Shown here: positions 47,410 through 63,408 of the stretch, piece after piece
How positions within the stretch are numbered: the stretch's first letter is position 1
Layout of the letters: each line of letters begins with the position of its first letter
From: Halomarina ordinaria
Lineage (GTDB): Archaea; Halobacteriota; Halobacteria; Halobacteriales; Haloarculaceae
Direction of reading: 5' to 3'
DNA: 64,000 nt
NCBI RefSeq assembly: GCF_030553305.1
Contig: NZ_JARRAH010000001.1
Span: forward strand, 1,922,001-1,986,000
Notes under the pieces: model-generated
Told to the model about the DNA's origin: nothing
The model's input: only the letters and a program-made list of their open reading frames with translations
Databases searched by the model: none
Made by a program: the position numbers and the translations under genes

Positions 47410-50400
47410 CTACGGTTCTGTTTTAACCGCTTCGTACTTCCGTAGCACCATGTCGAAGTAGTCCTCGTCCATCAGCCGGGGATTTTGAACGCGGTGGAAG
47501 TCATCGAGTACGAACTTCGTCTGCTCGTGGTTGAGGCCGTAAGCGTGGAAGGCCGCGGCGTCGAGTTCTGCCTGCACCTCTCGGCGCTCGCTCATGCTCG
47601 TGGCTGGTTCAACGCCACCGAGACGGTCGCGCAGCTCTTCGAACTCCTCGCCGTAGCAGTTCAGGCGGGCGGCCCGCTTCCATATGTGGTCGAACCACTC
47701 GTCACCGTCGGTGAGACGCGGTGCTTGTGACTCTCTTAGCTTGTAGAAAACTACAGTCGAGTCAATCTTTGTCCGCATCAGAAAATCGAACGGGAGGCTG
47801 TTCAACAGTCCAACTGCCACGAACAGTTCTCTGTCCGAATAGATTCGTTCGTAGACGCTATGCAGATTGGATTCTGTAAGATCTTCCTCTTCGGGTGCGA
47901 TTCGATATGGACGGAGGGTCGGCGCTTTATCGTGGCACACCACTTCCTTCGGAAGGACCGATGCAATCAACGTCCGCTCGTCACTGGAGCGGGCAATATC
48001 ACGGTAGGCGATACGGTACTCAGTACAATCGAGCAGCACGTCGTCTTCTGAAAGTGACTTTCCTCGTCGCTCTTCCAGCAACTCGTTCACAAACCCGATT
48101 TGCGAACCAGAGCCATCGAAGGCGTCGTAAATACCGCGCTTTAGTTTCGGTAAACTCTTTTCTCGAATCCGCTTCTTTGCGCTCAGGTTAGGGTCCTCAT
48201 CTTCTGGTACGCTCCAGAACTTTGGTCCTTCCAGGTTGTCCAAGAAAGACGGGTCGTACATGAACTGATAAAGATTACTCCCCCCGAGAACGGGGTAATC
48301 ACCCATCTCTTCCGATTCAAGGAAACGGTCCACATCACTCCCACGGTGAAGTTCAGCATAGGGTTCTACACGCCATGTTCCACCGAGGTCTTCACTGATT
48401 GATGGATGAGCGAGAATCGTGTTCAGAACGTCCGCCTCCTCCTGAGAATCGAGATACGGGAATATGGCTGCTTCAGGCGAATACTCACGAAGGACACGAC
48501 GGGGAATGGAAAGCGCACGTTCTTCGAGTTCCTGTAAAACTTCTACCCCATGTTGTTGGAAGATGCCACGGAGTTCATTAGTTGTTCCACGGTTCTCGAA
48601 TACGAGTGTTCCGAAGTTGTAGCGATTGTCTATCTCAGAGAAAATGCCCTTATTCTCGAAAGTGACGAGCGATTTAATTCCGGTTTCATCAAGCAAGTGG
48701 AGTCGCAGATCCTTCGTTGAAGAACCGTTGAATATCCCTCCCGGAAGCACTTGGGCTACATAGCCGTCGTCGCGGGCAATCTGGAAGACGCGTTCGAGAA
48801 AGAGGGCAGAAAGGTCGCTTTCCGTAGCCGACGTTCGCCCCGCAACTGTAGGGCGCTGAAGCTCATACTCATCAGAGTTGTTGAAATACTTTGATTGGAC
48901 CTCTATTTGTCGCTTGTAGTCTTCCCACCCCTCCCTTACTTCGGAAACTTCCAGCAGTTCATCTTGGCGTCTTTGTTTCGCTTCTGGTAGTAGAGTTCGG
49001 AACTCGGAATCAAACCGACTGAAGTAGTCGTCGCGTTGTGGTGTAATACGGTCCCAGGGAGGATTTCCAACAATCACGTCGAATCCGCCATCTGCATACA
49101 CTTCCGCGAACTCAAGCACCCAGTTGAACGGGTCCATATTTGCCACATCTTCTGAGGTGATGCCCTCAATTCCAGCATCAACGAAGTCCGCGTGAATATC
49201 GTCAATCAGTCCCTCACGGGCCGTCTGGAGCTTTTCAAACGCGGCCCGTCGGTGTTTCTCAGCAACTTCGGTATCGAACGCTTGCTCGTGCTTCTCGATT
49301 TCGTCGATGATTCCTTGATACCGCTCTCGGACGCTGTTCTCGGTGTAGCTACCCAGCGTGTACTCGCCCCGCTCGGTCGTTTCCGGAAAGCCGGTGTAGC
49401 CGATGAGGCTATTCCCCTGTCGGAGGTTGAAAACGATGTTCGGGAGCGCGAGGTCCTCGTCACTGAGGTCGTCCATCACTGCCTCGTCCAACTCCGAGAT
49501 GATGGAGAGCCACAGGCGAAGTTTCCCGATTTCGACCGCTGGCCCCACGATGTCCACGCCGTAAATGTTGTTCAGAACGGTCGTCTTCTTCAGACGGTAC
49601 TCTTGGGGGTAGTTCTCGCTCCTGGCATACAGTGCCTTCCTGACGTTAACGAGTTCTTCGAGGACCGACGTGAGGAAGTGGCCGCTCCCGCAGGCAGGGT
49701 CCACAACTCGAAAATCGTCTACCTCCGCGAGAAGGGACGTGATGAGGTCCCACTTCCCCGGTAGGTCCTCAATGAGTTCGTATACGGAGTCGTACTTCTC
49801 CACTTCCGGCTCGGGCCAGTCGCGGTCCTCGACCAGAACGCGTCCGAAGCGGTCCAGCAACGCGGGTCGGACGGTTTCCTCTGCGCAGAACCGGGTGATT
49901 TCACTCGGGGTGTAGTACGCCCCGAGTTCCTTATTGTTGTCTGCGTTGTCGCTGGTGATGTAGTTGATCGTCTTCTCGAAGACGTTGCCGAGCACACTCG
50001 GGTCGAGGTCGGTCGGTGCGCCAGCCGCCGAAAAGCTGTAGCCTTCTAGCAGGTCGATGATATCGAACAGGACGCTGTTCCGCACGTCGAAGTCCGCCTC
50101 ATCGAACTCGTCGCCGTCCTCTCCGATAGTGGGACGGAACAGTCCACCGTTGAGATACGGAATCCCGCTGAAGAGGTCGATGTTCTGGATGTTCGGAGAC
50201 CGCTTGTCGGGCTTTTCGTTCATCACCTCGTAGAACAAGCGTTGTAAGAATTCCTCGTAGAGCGACCCGCCGTACATCCCGCCATCATAGGTCTCCTTCA
50301 GCGTCCGGAGGAGGTCAGGCTGGACAATGGCCTTGTCTTCAAGGAACTTGATGAAGATGAGGCGGTTCATCAACTCCACAGCGAAAAGCCGGGCGTCCTC

Positions 50401-51264
50401 TTCTGTCGCACCGTCCGGTTTTACGACGCCATCACCGACCAGTGAGCGGGTCGTGCGCTCTTCCTCGGAGACGACCCCGAACACGTAGCGGATGTAGTCG
50501 TCGTAGAACTCGTCGGTTATCTCCTCCTGCTTGCGCTTGATGACTTGCCGGGCTTCGCCGCTAATCGAGCGGAAGTTGTCGAACTGGAAGCTCCTGACGA
50601 GTCGAGCCACCCGATCACCGTCCGCGTCGAACACTGCTTCATCGAGGGGGGCGCGTTTCCCGACCTGGTTCTCGAACAATGCGACGAACACCGGCTGGAG
50701 GTCTACATCCTCGATGATGTTGTGGCTGTACGAGTCCGGGTCGTACCGAACGAATACCCAGCGCAGGCCGTCGGTGGCGAAGCCAAAGTCCGACTCGAAC
50801 TCTCGCTGTCCGAGCCAATCTTTCACCTGCCCGACCCCGTGCTTTCGGGAGTGCAGGTCCTTGTTGATGGGCTCGGCTTCGATGAGCAGCCGTGTCGAGT
50901 CAATCTCCGAGTAATCTCGAAGCGACACAGTGTAATCGGCAACCATTGTCCGTCCCCCCGAGAGGCCACCCGCTTCGGTAGCGTACTCGTAGCCGAGTTC
51001 ATCCAAGAAGGGTTCAATGACTGCGTTCTGGGTGAACGATTCCGGCTGAAGACCGTCCTGAGTCATGCTTCCGCGGAGCCTGTACGACCCCGAGCCTGCC
51101 CGGAGCATCTTCCCGAGCGTGTCGTCATCTATCTGTTCGCGGAGGTTAGAAATCGTCTCATCTATCGTCTGAAGCAGACGGGTCTTCCGCTCGTCGGTGA
51201 CTGTCGTCTCGAAGGCTTCCTGAACGAACTCGGTGGCAGTAGTGGTCGTTGATTCGGGAGACAT
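47410..51264 (-). CDS. type IIG-like restriction-modification protein
   Basis: A 1284-residue single-chain protein. The N-terminal nuclease-like domain (about 65–180) has MVADYTVSL (Asp110) and LLIEAEPINKDL (E129-A-E131; the usual ExK lysine is glutamate). The helical connector leads to an adenine-methyltransferase core: LGAYYTPSEITRF, SAM-binding VVDPACGSGHFL (522–531) and catalytic VIVGNPPWD (734–737). A C-terminal target-recognition/TaqI-like domain follows. It would methylate adenine and may cut foreign DNA. PglX of BREX is related, but no BREX partners are here. The ATG at 51264 is preferred to 51318. Confidence 0.85.
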   Translation of the reverse strand: MSPESTTTTATEFVQEAFETTVTDERKTRLLQTIDETISNLREQIDDDTLGKMLRAGSGSYRLRGSMTQDGLQPESFTQNAVIEPFLDELGYEYATEAGGLSGGRTMVADYTVSLRDYSEIDSTRLLIEAEPINKDLHSRKHGVGQVKDWLGQREFESDFGFATDGLRWVFVRYDPDSYSHNIIEDVDLQPVFVALFENQVGKRAPLDEAVFDADGDRVARLVRSFQFDNFRSISGEARQVIKRKQEEITDEFYDDYIRYVFGVVSEEERTTRSLVGDGVVKPDGATEEDARLFAVELMNRLIFIKFLEDKAIVQPDLLRTLKETYDGGMYGGSLYEEFLQRLFYEVMNEKPDKRSPNIQNIDLFSGIPYLNGGLFRPTIGEDGDEFDEADFDVRNSVLFDIIDLLEGYSFSAAGAPTDLDPSVLGNVFEKTINYITSDNADNNKELGAYYTPSEITRFCAEETVRPALLDRFGRVLVEDRDWPEPEVEKYDSVYELIEDLPGKWDLITSLLAEVDDFRVVDPACGSGHFLTSVLEELVNVRKALYARSENYPQEYRLKKTTVLNNIYGVDIVGPAVEIGKLRLWLSIISELDEAVMDDLSDEDLALPNIVFNLRQGNSLIGYTGFPETTERGEYTLGSYTENSVRERYQGIIDEIEKHEQAFDTEVAEKHRRAAFEKLQTAREGLIDDIHADFVDAGIEGITSEDVANMDPFNWVLEFAEVYADGGFDVIVGNPPWDRITPQRDDYFSRFDSEFRTLLPEAKQRRQDELLEVSEVREGWEDYKRQIEVQSKYFNNSDEYELQRPTVAGRTSATESDLSALFLERVFQIARDDGYVAQVLPGGIFNGSSTKDLRLHLLDETGIKSLVTFENKGIFSEIDNRYNFGTLVFENRGTTNELRGIFQQHGVEVLQELEERALSIPRRVLREYSPEAAIFPYLDSQEEADVLNTILAHPSISEDLGGTWRVEPYAELHRGSDVDRFLESEEMGDYPVLGGSNLYQFMYDPSFLDNLEGPKFWSVPEDEDPNLSAKKRIREKSLPKLKRGIYDAFDGSGSQIGFVNELLEERRGKSLSEDDVLLDCTEYRIAYRDIARSSDERTLIASVLPKEVVCHDKAPTLRPYRIAPEEEDLTESNLHSVYERIYSDRELFVAVGLLNSLPFDFLMRTKIDSTVVFYKLRESQAPRLTDGDEWFDHIWKRAARLNCYGEEFEELRDRLGGVEPATSMSERREVQAELDAAAFHAYGLNHEQTKFVLDDFHRVQNPRLMDEDYFDMVLRKYEAVKTEP

Positions 51265-51563
51265 GAGTAGGACGCTGACTGGTTCTTTTCGTATCTCTGA
51301 CCAACTCGGGTTAAGCATTTGGAAGAAAGCGGTCGCTGTGTTGTGCCACCCGATGTCTTATCTGGAAAACCAACGAGAAAACCCAGCATCAGCTAGCGCC
51401 GAACGAGGCTCTATGTCCGCGCACTGGCTACGTTCGGTCTATTCGAACTGCGTAAACACTGTTAACAGCAGCAGGTGGAGGGCGGAAAAAAGCTTCCCGC
51501 AGACTTTCAACAGGCGGTTCTGAAGCCACGTGGTCTTCTACAGAACTCGGGATCTTCCTCCGT

Positions 51564-53194: not shown

Positions 53195-54169
53195 ATGGCT
53201 GGCTCGACGTGGTCCGATATTTTACAGCTGATAGCACAACAGAGACAGAAGGGTGACCCGAACGCATTCGATACTGTTCGCCGCCACTATCTTAATCAGC
53301 TGCATCAGCTCACAGAACGGGACACGATTCTGTATTCTACAGCATGGACTCAGAATCAGGGGGGCTCGCCGGGGCTGTCCATCACTAATGAAGACGTGCA
53401 TGGATTCATGGAGGCAGTTCATGGGCTAGAAGGGCCAGAGCTTGACTTGATCCTGCACAGTCCTGGAGGGTCTGCTGAAGCAACCGAGCAGATTGTCGCC
53501 TATCTACGTGCCAAATTCTCAGAGATAAGAATATTCGTGCCGCAATCAGCAATGTCTGCGGCTACTCTGATGTGCTGCGCTGCTGACGAAGTAGTGATGG
53601 GCAATCACTCATCTCTCGGGCCTATTGACCCACAAATCGGGATCCAGACGCAGACTGGAGTGAGAACGACAGCTGCACAAGCCATCCTAGACCAGTTTGA
53701 GATGGCCAAGTCAGAAATCAGTACTAATACCGACCTACTTGCTTGGTTGCCAATTCTGAGACAGTACGCCCCAGGACTGGTAGCCGAGTGTGAAGAGGCA
53801 AAGGAATTGTCTATCGATTTGGCGGAAGAATGGGCCACACAGTATATGCACGGTGGCGACCCGGATGCAGAACAGAAGGCTCGACAGTTGGCAGAATACC
53901 TTGCTAACCGGCGCGAATTCAAGAGCCATAGTAGGCGTATTAGTAGAGAGCAGGCAGCAGAAAACGGGTTTAATGTGACTGCACTTGAGGATGATCAAGA
54001 TCTTCAAGACCTGGTACTCGCAGTGTTTCATGCGACAAGCCATACCCACAACGGTACCCCGCTAGTGAAGCTTATTGAGAATCATACTGGCCGAGCGTTT
54101 ATGAAATCCCTTGGGTCCGACGCTCCAGAGCAAGAAGAGAAACCCGCTCCGGAGAAAGAAGAGGAATAG
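53195..54169 (+). CDS. SDH-family Clp-fold serine protease
   Basis: A 324-residue protein of the serine dehydrogenase proteinase (SDH/SppA-like, ClpP fold) family. It has the oxyanion-type LDLILHSPGGSAEA (about 84–96), nucleophile Ser121 in VPQSAMSAATLMCCAADEVVMG, and HSSLGPIDPQIG (His138, Asp145 region). A helical C-terminal half and an acidic EEKPAPEKEEE tail follow. No signal peptide or membrane span. Moderately AT-rich. Cytoplasmic protease; substrate unknown, and a role in phage defence would be speculative. Confidence 0.85.
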   Translation: MAGSTWSDILQLIAQQRQKGDPNAFDTVRRHYLNQLHQLTERDTILYSTAWTQNQGGSPGLSITNEDVHGFMEAVHGLEGPELDLILHSPGGSAEATEQIVAYLRAKFSEIRIFVPQSAMSAATLMCCAADEVVMGNHSSLGPIDPQIGIQTQTGVRTTAAQAILDQFEMAKSEISTNTDLLAWLPILRQYAPGLVAECEEAKELSIDLAEEWATQYMHGGDPDAEQKARQLAEYLANRREFKSHSRRISREQAAENGFNVTALEDDQDLQDLVLAVFHATSHTHNGTPLVKLIENHTGRAFMKSLGSDAPEQEEKPAPEKEEE

Positions 54170-54643: not shown

Positions 54644-57600
54644 TTAGCCGACGTCGGTTGACGGCAGACCGCCCCCGTCCGGCGAGGCCGACGACGACTC
54701 CCCGGCGACGACTGGCGAACCGTCCCTGTCGAGAGGCGGTGAACCGGCGAAGTTGACGAACTCCCACGTATAGGTAATACTCATACGGGCGAGTTCGTCC
54801 ACCTTGGCGTCCGCCAGATCAACGAGGGCGACGGTGTCCAGGTCGACATCGCCGTGCTCGGCGAGGCGGTGGAGGCCGTCGTCGCGCCACACGAACGCCC
54901 GGCCGTCCTCGCGTGACTGTTCTCGGTGGAGTACACCCCGGTCGACGAGTGCCGAAAGGATCGTAAGCACTTGACGCTGGCCGACGTCGACAGCGGGGTG
55001 GTGAGTGACGTCTCGGGTTCGGGGAGCGTCGAGGTCCTGCAGTGCCTCAACGACCTGGCGCTCGCCGTCGCTCCGGGTGGTGACGACGCGCCCCTCTCCG
55101 GCGACGGGGACCCACTCCGGGAGCGTATTCGTATGGACGTAGACGACAGCACCGTTCCCGTCGCGGCCGAAGCGCATCGCGGCCTGCAGCGTCTCGTGTT
55201 CGCGCATATGGGTGAGAATCTCGTCACCGAATGCGCCGTAGGAGAGGCGGGTACCTTTTGCGCTGTCCGCGCGGGCGTCGGCCCCGGCAGGGACGTCCTC
55301 GCCAGCGTACCCTCCCCACTTCTGGATGTAGTCGTCGCCGTAGTGGTTCGACCCAATCACCGCGCCGAGGCGGGTGTGCTTGTACTCATTCGATCCGAGG
55401 ACGTTCCCGTAGTGGGTACCACTCGCGATGAGTCCGCCCCCGATCTGTCCGTCGCCGTCTCGCTCGGTGATGCCGGCGGCGACGTACTCCTCCTCGGCGG
55501 TCGACGTCGTGATAACCGAGGGACGCTCCCCGTGTTCCTGAGTAATCCCTTCGAGGAGCGCGGCGTCCCGGTCGACGTTGACGTGGTCGGAAGAGTTGTA
55601 GGGTTTCACCCAGTCAGTCGTCCGTATCAGGTTGAGGTTGAGGGCGTCTGCGATGTACTCGACGCGCTCCGGTTCCGAGAGGACCGGCCGGTGGTTGAGT
55701 CGCGTCCCGAGTGACAGTTCCCACATGCGTTGTGTGGGGGTCCCGTCGAGGGCGATGGTTCCTCGAGTGGTGGAGAGATCCGGCGGCTGCAGGAGGCGAA
55801 TCTCGCCCTCCTCGCGGTTGTAGAGTCCCACTCGTCGTTCGTCGACGACGGCACGCTCCCACCCGTTCCCGAGGTCGTTCGTCGCGCCGGCGAGCAGCGT
55901 GAACACGGCGAGTGGAGCGAGGGCGTGGCCGCCGTCGCGGAACGCCTGTCGCCAGTCGCCATTGAGGTCGTCCTCGTCGAACCAGGCGAGCGCGTCGGCA
56001 CGGCACTGTCCCTCGCCTCGCCCGTCCATCAAATCGGCGTAGTCGTCGAACGGGAGGCCGGGCGTCCCCTGGAGGTAGGTCGTCACGGCGCGGGGGAGCG
56101 TGGCGGTACTGAATGTCGTCTCGTAGGCCCCGCCAGGGAACTCGTCGAGGATGACGCTTCGCCCCTGCGTGACGGTTCGACGGTGGGCGTGGGCGTAGTG
56201 ACCAATCAGGACGTCCCACGGCTCGCCGGTGTCAGGGTGTTCGTCGGGGTCGAAGCGCCACTTCGAGGAGTACGGACACTCCTGCCCCTCGTGTTCTTGG
56301 CAGGGGAGCGGCCGACCGAGTTCGTCCTCGGCGTAGGCGTGGATGTCCTTCGGCGTCGCCCCCCGGCGGTAGAAGTCCATCACCGCCGCTTTCCACTCCT
56401 CGCCGTGCTCGCCGTTAGCCGTGGGGCAGTCACGGGTAAACGCCGGGAGGATCCTCGACGTGAGGCCGTGCTCGTCGGCCCACTGCTCGAATTGAGCATA
56501 CTGTTCCTTGTTCCCCCGCCCGGTCAGTACTGTTACCGGCGTCTCGGTGTTCGCGGCGGCGGCGATACTCCCGTATGACTTCCCGAGGGTCGGGAGCGCC
56601 TCGACGAGGGTGTGGTCGCACCTGTCGAGCGCCTTCTCTATCGCTTCGCGGGTTCGCTGTCGCGCCTCGTCGGTCGTGAGGGCGTCGTCGGTCCGGGCGT
56701 CACTCGTCCAGTCGAACCCGCGCGACGTCGCCCGCGCTTTTGGCGAGTTCGGGAGCACGGAGACGTGCTCGGTGTCCTCGTCGGGCGAGACGTACTCGGG
56801 AATGTCATAGTCAAGTGCTCGGAGGTGCTCGATACCTTGGAACCACAGCACTCCCCGCGCGTCGCTCGGCTGGGCCGTCCGTGGGGAAAGCTCCCCGAGG
56901 TCGATGAGCGCCATGGTGACAGGGCCACCGTACCCCCCGCCGCCGGTGTCCTGCCAGATTTGGTCATTGACGACGTTCGCCGTCCCGTTGGCCGACCTTC
57001 CCCAGATGGGGACGAACGCGCGGTGTCCGGCGGATGTCGAGGCGTCGTCATTCCAGCGGTGAACAATAGTGTCCCCGGCGACGCGACGGGCGTCGAGGCG
57101 ATCCAGAGCAGCGAACACGTCTCGAATGTCGTCGGTCGTCTCGTCGGACGTCGTCGCGCTGGCGTCGTAGTCGGCCGGGTCGAACGCCTGGTACCCGCCG
57201 GCGATGTCCTCCCGTGGTGTCGGGAGACAGTTGTGGTCGGCGAGGATCGTCCGCAGCGCCTCGTCGTTCCACGGGTTGACGTCGGTGGGCGTTCCAGGGA
57301 CGTGTTCGCCGGTGAGGACGCACACGTGCTTTCCGGTGTAGATCTCTACCTCGGGGACGTCGTCGTTCGCTCCCCATGATTCATCGTCCAGGGCGAACGT
57401 CGCTTGCGTCTGTCCCTCGGGGAGCGTCCCTTGGTAGTTGGCGTGACAGCCACTCCCCGAGGTAGAGACGTCGGTGTACGTCGCGCCGAGCTGCTCGAGG
57501 ATCTCGACGAACGCGGGGTGTACCTCGCCCGTCTCGGGGCAGCGGACGTCGTCGCCGTCGACGAAGCCATATGGGTCGTCGGCCTGTTGGAGGAACACCC

Positions 57601-58036
57601 GCCCGGCGAGGCGGTGGTCGTCCTCGGCGAGCGCGACGGTGTCGCCGTCGACGTAGTTCTCGGTGAGGCCCCACTTCCAGCGGGCGTCCTCGTCCTCGTC
57701 AGCCTCTGGGTGATCATGGTCGGCCCACGGCGCGAACGGGAGTTTTCCACTCTCCCCGGTGCGACCCATCCACTGCGTACGCTCGTGGAGTTCCGAGGGC
57801 CACACCCCGGATTCGGGGGTCGAAAAGACGGCCTCAGTGTACGCACCGATGTTGGCGGAGTCGGCGTTGTCACTCGCTGTCGACTCTGCTCTCTTGGGGT
57901 CGGTATCACCGAACGGACTTGCACTGGAAACGCTCGCCCGATGGTGTTCACATAGCGCACCGTCTCGTCGCTCGACGGCCTCGCGCTCGCACGATGGGAG
58001 CGTACACTGGCGAGCGACAGGAACGTCGTCCGTCAT
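54644..58036 (-). CDS. primase/helicase-like replication protein
   Basis: A 1130-residue protein. A zinc finger (CTLPSCEREAVERRDGALCEHH, 11–32) comes first. Then a primase-polymerase-like domain has FVDGDDV (D160, D162/163) and the SxSGxGxH motif VSTSGSGCHA (190–199). From about 450 follows an ATPase: VEALPTLGKSYGS (479–490, a variant Walker A) and SVILDEFPGG (near 640, Walker B/DEXX). The end holds a winged-helix-like segment (VGQRQVLTILSALVDRGVLHREQ). Such primase–helicases copy plasmids and viruses. It lies just inside the right end of the element. Confidence 0.72.
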   Translation of the reverse strand: MTDDVPVARQCTLPSCEREAVERRDGALCEHHRASVSSASPFGDTDPKRAESTASDNADSANIGAYTEAVFSTPESGVWPSELHERTQWMGRTGESGKLPFAPWADHDHPEADEDEDARWKWGLTENYVDGDTVALAEDDHRLAGRVFLQQADDPYGFVDGDDVRCPETGEVHPAFVEILEQLGATYTDVSTSGSGCHANYQGTLPEGQTQATFALDDESWGANDDVPEVEIYTGKHVCVLTGEHVPGTPTDVNPWNDEALRTILADHNCLPTPREDIAGGYQAFDPADYDASATTSDETTDDIRDVFAALDRLDARRVAGDTIVHRWNDDASTSAGHRAFVPIWGRSANGTANVVNDQIWQDTGGGGYGGPVTMALIDLGELSPRTAQPSDARGVLWFQGIEHLRALDYDIPEYVSPDEDTEHVSVLPNSPKARATSRGFDWTSDARTDDALTTDEARQRTREAIEKALDRCDHTLVEALPTLGKSYGSIAAAANTETPVTVLTGRGNKEQYAQFEQWADEHGLTSRILPAFTRDCPTANGEHGEEWKAAVMDFYRRGATPKDIHAYAEDELGRPLPCQEHEGQECPYSSKWRFDPDEHPDTGEPWDVLIGHYAHAHRRTVTQGRSVILDEFPGGAYETTFSTATLPRAVTTYLQGTPGLPFDDYADLMDGRGEGQCRADALAWFDEDDLNGDWRQAFRDGGHALAPLAVFTLLAGATNDLGNGWERAVVDERRVGLYNREEGEIRLLQPPDLSTTRGTIALDGTPTQRMWELSLGTRLNHRPVLSEPERVEYIADALNLNLIRTTDWVKPYNSSDHVNVDRDAALLEGITQEHGERPSVITTSTAEEEYVAAGITERDGDGQIGGGLIASGTHYGNVLGSNEYKHTRLGAVIGSNHYGDDYIQKWGGYAGEDVPAGADARADSAKGTRLSYGAFGDEILTHMREHETLQAAMRFGRDGNGAVVYVHTNTLPEWVPVAGEGRVVTTRSDGERQVVEALQDLDAPRTRDVTHHPAVDVGQRQVLTILSALVDRGVLHREQSREDGRAFVWRDDGLHRLAEHGDVDLDTVALVDLADAKVDELARMSITYTWEFVNFAGSPPLDRDGSPVVAGESSSASPDGGGLPSTDVG

Positions 58037-58318: not shown

Positions 58319-58547
58319 GGAAAGGCGGCGAACCACCAGTTGCGGGCGTCGACAGTCCGCTCACCGGTTCCACCGGGACGAACCCAGCGTGTACTACGGT
58401 TCACGGACCTCGGCCCGTACTTGGAACCTCTTGCGAGGCAGTTTTCCCAGAGGCTCTCGCACTCCAGTACTCGCTGGAACGCAGGCGGGCTTATCTTCCG
58501 TGTTCGGGATGGGTACGGGAGTTGCCCCGCCGCTCTGGCCGCCTTAA
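58319..58547 (-). rRNA. rrf: 5S rRNA with ~108-nt insertion
   Basis: On the minus strand the 5' two thirds are ordinary haloarchaeal 5S (TTAAGGCGGC…CTCCCGTACCCATCCCGAAC…GATAAGCCCGCCTGCGTTCC…GTACTGGAGTGCG). After CTCTGGGAAA an unrelated block of about 108 nt (plus positions about 58336–58443) comes before the normal end GGTTCGCCGCCTT. Total is about 229 nt against the usual ~122. This is close to the Halococcus morrhuae 5S (231 nt with a 108-nt insert). Confidence 0.93.
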
Positions 58548-58647: not shown

Positions 58648-61561
<2,914 letters not shown>

Positions 61562-61590
61562 ATGATGATATATAATGCTCTGGACCACGA

Positions 61591-61936: not shown

Positions 61937-63408
<1,472 letters not shown>

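Follow-up and report, generated by a model that had tools for sequence, protein, structure and literature searches.

The sole 5S rRNA gene of the Halomarina genome studied here is interrupted by a 105-nt insert at the site of the Halococcus morrhuae 5S insertion, and homologous inserts are found at this position in six groups of family rank within the order. The exact site and homology, the sole 5S gene, covariation, the conserved arm tip and the H. morrhuae precedent make it very probable that the insert is a retained 5S rRNA expansion segment homologous to the Halococcus one. Our analysis further favors an ancient origin of this segment, followed by many losses and some later transfer, over purely horizontal spread.

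In the window, the 64,000-nt stretch of DNA analyzed in this work, Rfam searches place the rrn operon on the minus strand in the order 16S rRNA (61937..63408; RF01959), tRNA-Ala (61838-61767), 23S rRNA (58651..61564; RF02540) and 5S rRNA, followed by tRNA-Cys (58189-58114). The expanded 5S gene (58320..58547, minus strand, about 228 nt; RF00001) is the only 5S match in the 3.61-Mb, 99.9% complete genome, and is 85% identical overall to the alignment reference used here, the 5S of H. morrhuae DSM 1307 (231 nt; NZ_AOMC01000054.1 66311-66541). The alignment separates three parts of the gene, all on the minus strand: the 5' part of the conserved core with one helix I strand, helices II-III, loop E and helix IV (58440..58547, also matched by Rfam); the insert (58335..58439); and the 3' part of the core, which closes helix I in the predicted fold (58320..58334). 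The insert is flanked by ...CTCTGGGAAAACT and GGTTCGCCGCC, corresponding to U104|G105 in H. morrhuae numbering; as read from the alignment for 58439-58335, the bordering core sequences are ...GGGAAAACU before and GGUUCGCCGCC after the insert. Since the pentanucleotide AACUG is present at both edges, the exact boundary could move by a few bases. An initial annotation had described a 5S gene interrupted at the Halococcus position by about 108 nt. The interruption is real and lies far beyond chance, given full-length homologues in dozens of genomes and strong covariation, and it shares both site and homologous sequence with the Halococcus insertion; the insert is, however, 105 nt long and starts three bases later than proposed.

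The Rfam 5S call itself ends at 58428, with the closing strand of helix I approximately 100 nt beyond, because the first hairpin of the insert mimics a 5S 3' end; misannotation of this kind has been described by Stepanov & Fox (PMC7812874). The same model reports expanded archaeal 5S genes as roughly 120 nt long (58428-58547 in the window; 1501-1622 and 1501-1620 in the Methanonatronarchaeia-like loci L200 and L222), and since it takes the start of the insert for the 3' end, the expansion is hidden in annotations.

To describe the fold, a consensus structure was derived with RNAalifold from 22 homologues. It opens with a hairpin of 4 bp and continues as a long arm made up of four interrupted helices. 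In the window, the hairpin (CCUC GCAA GAGG; 58427..58438, minus strand) corresponds to consensus helix 2, where 100% of cells are paired and two of the four pairs show double changes; the arm (58335..58426, minus strand) comprises helices 3-6, with 94–100% of cells paired and double changes in 18 of 28 pairs. Over the 22 sequences, 97.8% of cells are paired and 20 of 38 pairs changed on both sides; counting on a structure obtained from the same alignment inflates the pairing percentage, but does not account for so many double changes (122 double-change cells, compared with a mean of 36 in shuffled and at most 23 in slid controls). The region 58332-58440 has a fold z-score of −2.8, and the Hikarchaeia insert adopts the same fold when folded alone. 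The folded extra arm proposed in the initial annotation is thus borne out by consensus fold and covariation, with its position on the ribosome taken from homology to H. morrhuae. The overall plan is that of the Halococcus type: an asymmetric V formed by a short hairpin and a long unbranched arm, with the distal stem-loop most conserved. This arm tip, 28 nt in length (AGUACACGCUGGGUUCGUCCCGGUGGAA, also given as AGUACACGCnGGGUUCGUCCCGGUGGAA; 58368..58395, minus strand), is 71–100% identical between haloarchaea and Hikarchaeia or Ordosarchaeia, as compared to 44–57% for the remaining insert. Within the tip, AGUA facing GAA is similar in sequence to the bulged-G (loop E type) motif, although it is not found in every genus. 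In one further Halomarina locus (L079, genome G001) the tip has been rebuilt as AGUAGAC-CAGGGUUCGCCCCAGUCGACA; it is one base shorter and carries compensatory changes.

The organism had been suggested to be Halococcus or a relative sharing the insertion; the second possibility is correct. The 16S rRNA of the window is 97.4% identical to that of a genome assigned to H. halobia PSR21, 96.7% to H. oriensis and 96.1–97.9% to six genomes of the same genus, as opposed to 89.4% to H. morrhuae. Phylogenies of the rRNA operon and of 16S rRNA place the genome inside Halomarina and do not cluster it with Halococcus, to which Halomarina is not close by rRNA comparison. By these sequence criteria the source genus is Halomarina, and the insertion extends well beyond Halococcus.

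Large 5S insertions have been described before, and the feature of the window is itself already known, since Halomarina is on the list of Stepanov & Fox (2021; PMC7812874), who named four archaeal genera: Halococcus, Halalkalicoccus, Halomarina and Halodesulfurarchaeum. The insert belongs to the same single structural type as their archaeal type (104.1-105), which we find also in ‘Actinarchaeum’, further haloarchaeal genera, Ordosarchaeia and Hikarchaeia. The 5S of H. morrhuae, with its 108-nt insertion and total length of 231 nt (Luehrsen 1981; Tirumalai 2020, PMC7530397), shares with that of Halomarina the site, the fold plan and the status of sole 5S gene, but belongs to another genus; the Halomarina insert is 3 nt shorter and has a shorter 3'-side loop. 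Bacterial 5S expansions (Thermoanaerobacterales, Peptococcaceae, Pseudoalteromonas) are likewise large self-folding inserts, but occupy other sites, are of other structural types and often stand next to normal 5S copies (PMC7812874).

Experiments on H. morrhuae, the one species in which this was shown, demonstrate that the insert is kept in mature 5S rRNA (PMC7812874, PMC7530397), the long form being the only 5S (PMC7530397). By cryo-EM, the H. morrhuae insert forms a four-way junction from which a flexible arm projects off the central protuberance, leaving the core unchanged; faint density points toward helix 38 of 23S rRNA, and the arm is mostly disordered (PMC7530397). By homology, the Halomarina arm would be transcribed as part of the rrn operon and retained, which would give each large subunit a solvent-side arm on its central protuberance. 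As the tip is constrained in sequence, it may have a binding partner, whether a protein, an RNA or helix 38 of the 23S rRNA; the disorder of the arm in the cryo-EM structure counts against this proposal.

Excised intervening sequences are known in other rRNAs, and the insert could accordingly be one that is cut out as the rRNA is processed, so that a normal or fragmented 5S would result; its self-contained fold and the AACUG repeat would allow this. Nevertheless, the H. morrhuae 5S pool is entirely long and density exits the ribosome at the insertion site (PMC7530397), and a discarded spacer would have no need of a conserved tip; we therefore regard excision as highly improbable.

The surroundings of the operon show several further features. 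The G+C content drops from approximately 70% to 50–57% between 44000 and 54000 of the window (61% at 46–48 kb), and encoded there are, at 47410-51318 on the minus strand, a Type IIG-like restriction enzyme-methyltransferase and, at 53195-54169 on the plus strand, a ClpP-like SDH-type serine protease; together with the G+C drop, these two genes give the region the look of a genomic island. A 1130-aa protein (54644-58036, minus) with weak PHROG matches to DNA primase/helicase adjoins tRNA-Cys. We considered whether the 5S insert could be a by-product of a mobile element beside tRNA-Cys, and rejected this, as the tRNA-Cys 3' end is not repeated elsewhere within the window and the insert is shared across families.

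The distribution of the insert was surveyed by DNA and covariance searches plus one pattern scan. Inserts are present at the site in Halomarina and in two f1 genera (g5, including ‘Actinarchaeum halophilum’ YIM 93972, and g19), in Halococcus and three further genera of f5 (g39, g59 and g66, the latter two known from the MAGs QH_8_64_26, QS_3_64_16 and QS_4_69_34), in Halalkalicoccus and in Halodesulfurarchaeum. They are also found in all three genomes of f9 with a readable 5S, a family that includes Ods02, a MAG of Ca. Ordosarchaeia (PMC10873845), and in both genomes of f2 whose 5S covers the site, PW3.metabat2.160 and HikBin5, the latter assigned to Marine Group IV/Hikarchaeia (PMC7599335). 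Neighboring genera without the insert are f14 g53, the other f12 genera, most of f1, and G044. The three g39 loci (L095, L102, L114) belong to the Halococcus family by taxonomy codes, yet are basal to haloarchaea in the larger 16S+23S tree, and their insert is as distinct as their rRNA position. Viral contigs searched for the insert motif gave no match. A Chloroflexi record (L068) contains the tip motif with no 5S similarity there, and weak matches in G103, G252, G383, G124, G259 and G016 are short and outside any 5S gene; both were taken as chance. The presence of the arm in Ordosarchaeia and Hikarchaeia, and possibly Methanonatronarchaeia, appears to be new; our literature search, which covered open-access papers, turned up none that links the 5S insertion to Hikarchaeia or Methanonatronarchaeum.

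We then asked whether this distribution reflects descent or transfer. A 16S+23S tree (GTR+G) branches in the order Methanonatronarchaeia-like genomes, a node that is not to be taken from this tree, then Ordosarchaeia with G044, then Hikarchaeia with haloarchaea (deep nodes 100/100). Hikarchaeia fall beside or at the base of haloarchaea in 16S+23S trees, and the careful tree leaves this branching unsettled. Insert divergence tracks rRNA divergence (rho 0.70, compared with 0.76 for the 5S core), with the exception of Halococcus and Halalkalicoccus, whose inserts are as little as 3.5% apart while their rRNAs differ by 10%, making later transfer between these two genera likely. In the tree of the insert (110 columns), the inserts of haloarchaea group together (97/86) to the exclusion of those of Hikarchaeia and Ordosarchaeia, and within this haloarchaeal clade f5 g39 branches first, as it does in the larger rRNA tree. 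On the other hand, AU tests based on the 110 insert columns fail to reject trees in which Hikarchaeia nest among haloarchaeal inserts (p 0.21–0.43), and a binary-character (Mk) model gives an equivocal probability of 0.53–0.60 for the insert at deep nodes; neither the insert tree nor this model is decisive for any history. The event counts are close: a single origin requires 11 losses (12 with Methanonatronarchaeia), gains only require 9 events, and mixed, equal-weight parsimony requires 9 changes.

Stepanov & Fox (PMC7812874) proposed an origin of the insert in a single haloarchaeal lineage, from which it spread mainly by 5S gene transfer. The absence of the insert from most haloarchaeal genera, including sister genera of carriers (f14 g53 for Halalkalicoccus, other f12 genera for Halodesulfurarchaeum), fits such a history, as do the similar inserts of Halococcus and Halalkalicoccus and the smaller number of events under gains only. 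However, the Hikarchaeia and Ordosarchaeia inserts differ by about one third or more from the haloarchaeal ones compared, and therefore no recent transfer is involved; apart from the Halococcus/Halalkalicoccus pair, insert divergence follows rRNA divergence; and marine Hikarchaeia are unlikely partners for brine archaea. We consider mainly horizontal spread rather unlikely on this basis. An origin before the split of Ordosarchaeia, Hikarchaeia and haloarchaea is probable, given the full representation of the insert among the readable Ordosarchaeia and Hikarchaeia 5S genes, the rRNA trees, the correlated divergence and the haloarchaeal insert clade; it is weakened by the permissive AU tests, the equivocal binary model, the close event counts and the insert-free G044 beside Ordosarchaeia. 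Following such an ancient origin, most haloarchaeal genera would have lost the insert, and lateral exchange would also have moved it, at the least between the genera Halococcus and Halalkalicoccus.

Whether the origin is older still depends on a further class. Outgroup 5S genes were sampled through Rfam 5S matches from 24 genomes, of which 22 lie outside the order, with two near contig ends left out; 19 complete genes read among the outgroup genomes are of the normal type. Two genomes of family f26 from separate genera, G420 and G411, carry an insert; their class has one more member, G429, whose 5S is normal. G420 encodes tRNA-Pyl, PylS, PylB and di- and trimethylamine methyltransferases, which identifies it as a methylamine methanogen; mcrA was not found with short queries in the roughly 780 kb read. 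Based on the pyl cluster, an assembly of 2.1 Mb in 4 contigs, a class of three genomes and its rRNA position, G420 likely belongs to Methanonatronarchaeia. In L200 and L222, the Methanonatronarchaeia-like loci, 23S and 5S are separated by a tRNA gene, and the archaeal RNase P RNA gene is located downstream of 5S.

The f26 inserts (~105–110 nt) lie at the same site and follow the same order of elements, a short hairpin and next a long arm that contains a 3'-heavy internal loop and a distal hairpin, but have hardly any sequence similarity to the haloarchaeal inserts and lack the haloarchaeal arm tip. A covariance model built, with core flanks, from inserts of haloarchaea, Hikarchaeia and Ordosarchaeia gives the two f26 inserts 33.0 and 25.7 bits; an insert-only model gives them 17.3 bits (E 0.055) and 15.0 bits (E 0.2), the best non-member matches in the 51 kb searched, full length and exactly at the site. 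Homology to the Halococcus type is suggested rather than proven. There is almost an even chance that f26 instead acquired its insert independently, at a site that is permissive and exposed to solvent: sequence similarity and insert-only scores are low, the tip is missing, G429 of the same class has a normal 5S, and no other insertion site is known in archaeal 5S, so that this one may simply be tolerant. Against it stand the shared site, similar length and common plan, and the rank, full length and exact placement of both matches. The alternative, that the arm was inserted once in the ancestor of Methanonatronarchaeia, Ordosarchaeia, Hikarchaeia and haloarchaea and lost many times, is put forward only tentatively. 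Sisterhood of Methanonatronarchaeia and the haloarchaeal line is contested (for, PMC10873845; against, PMC13082222), and protein studies using mixture models dispute the placement of Methanonatronarchaeia (PMC13082222).

Taken alone, the feature in the window adds one more Halomarina to a published list; what is new is how deep and how wide the arm runs. It had been regarded as belonging to a few haloarchaeal genera, among which it spread by transfer, and a tentative link to hypoxic saline life had been drawn. The arms of Ordosarchaeia and marine Hikarchaeia, their compensatory evolution and the nearly fixed tip argue from sequence that the arm is old and probably functional, and the real puzzle becomes its repeated loss. 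Should the arms of Methanonatronarchaeia be homologous, they would offer a structural marker, independent of amino-acid composition, for the disputed branching of the halophilic methanogens. A single ancestral insertion, if true, would make the arm a ribosomal feature older than haloarchaea and a marker for the contested sisterhood of Methanonatronarchaeia.
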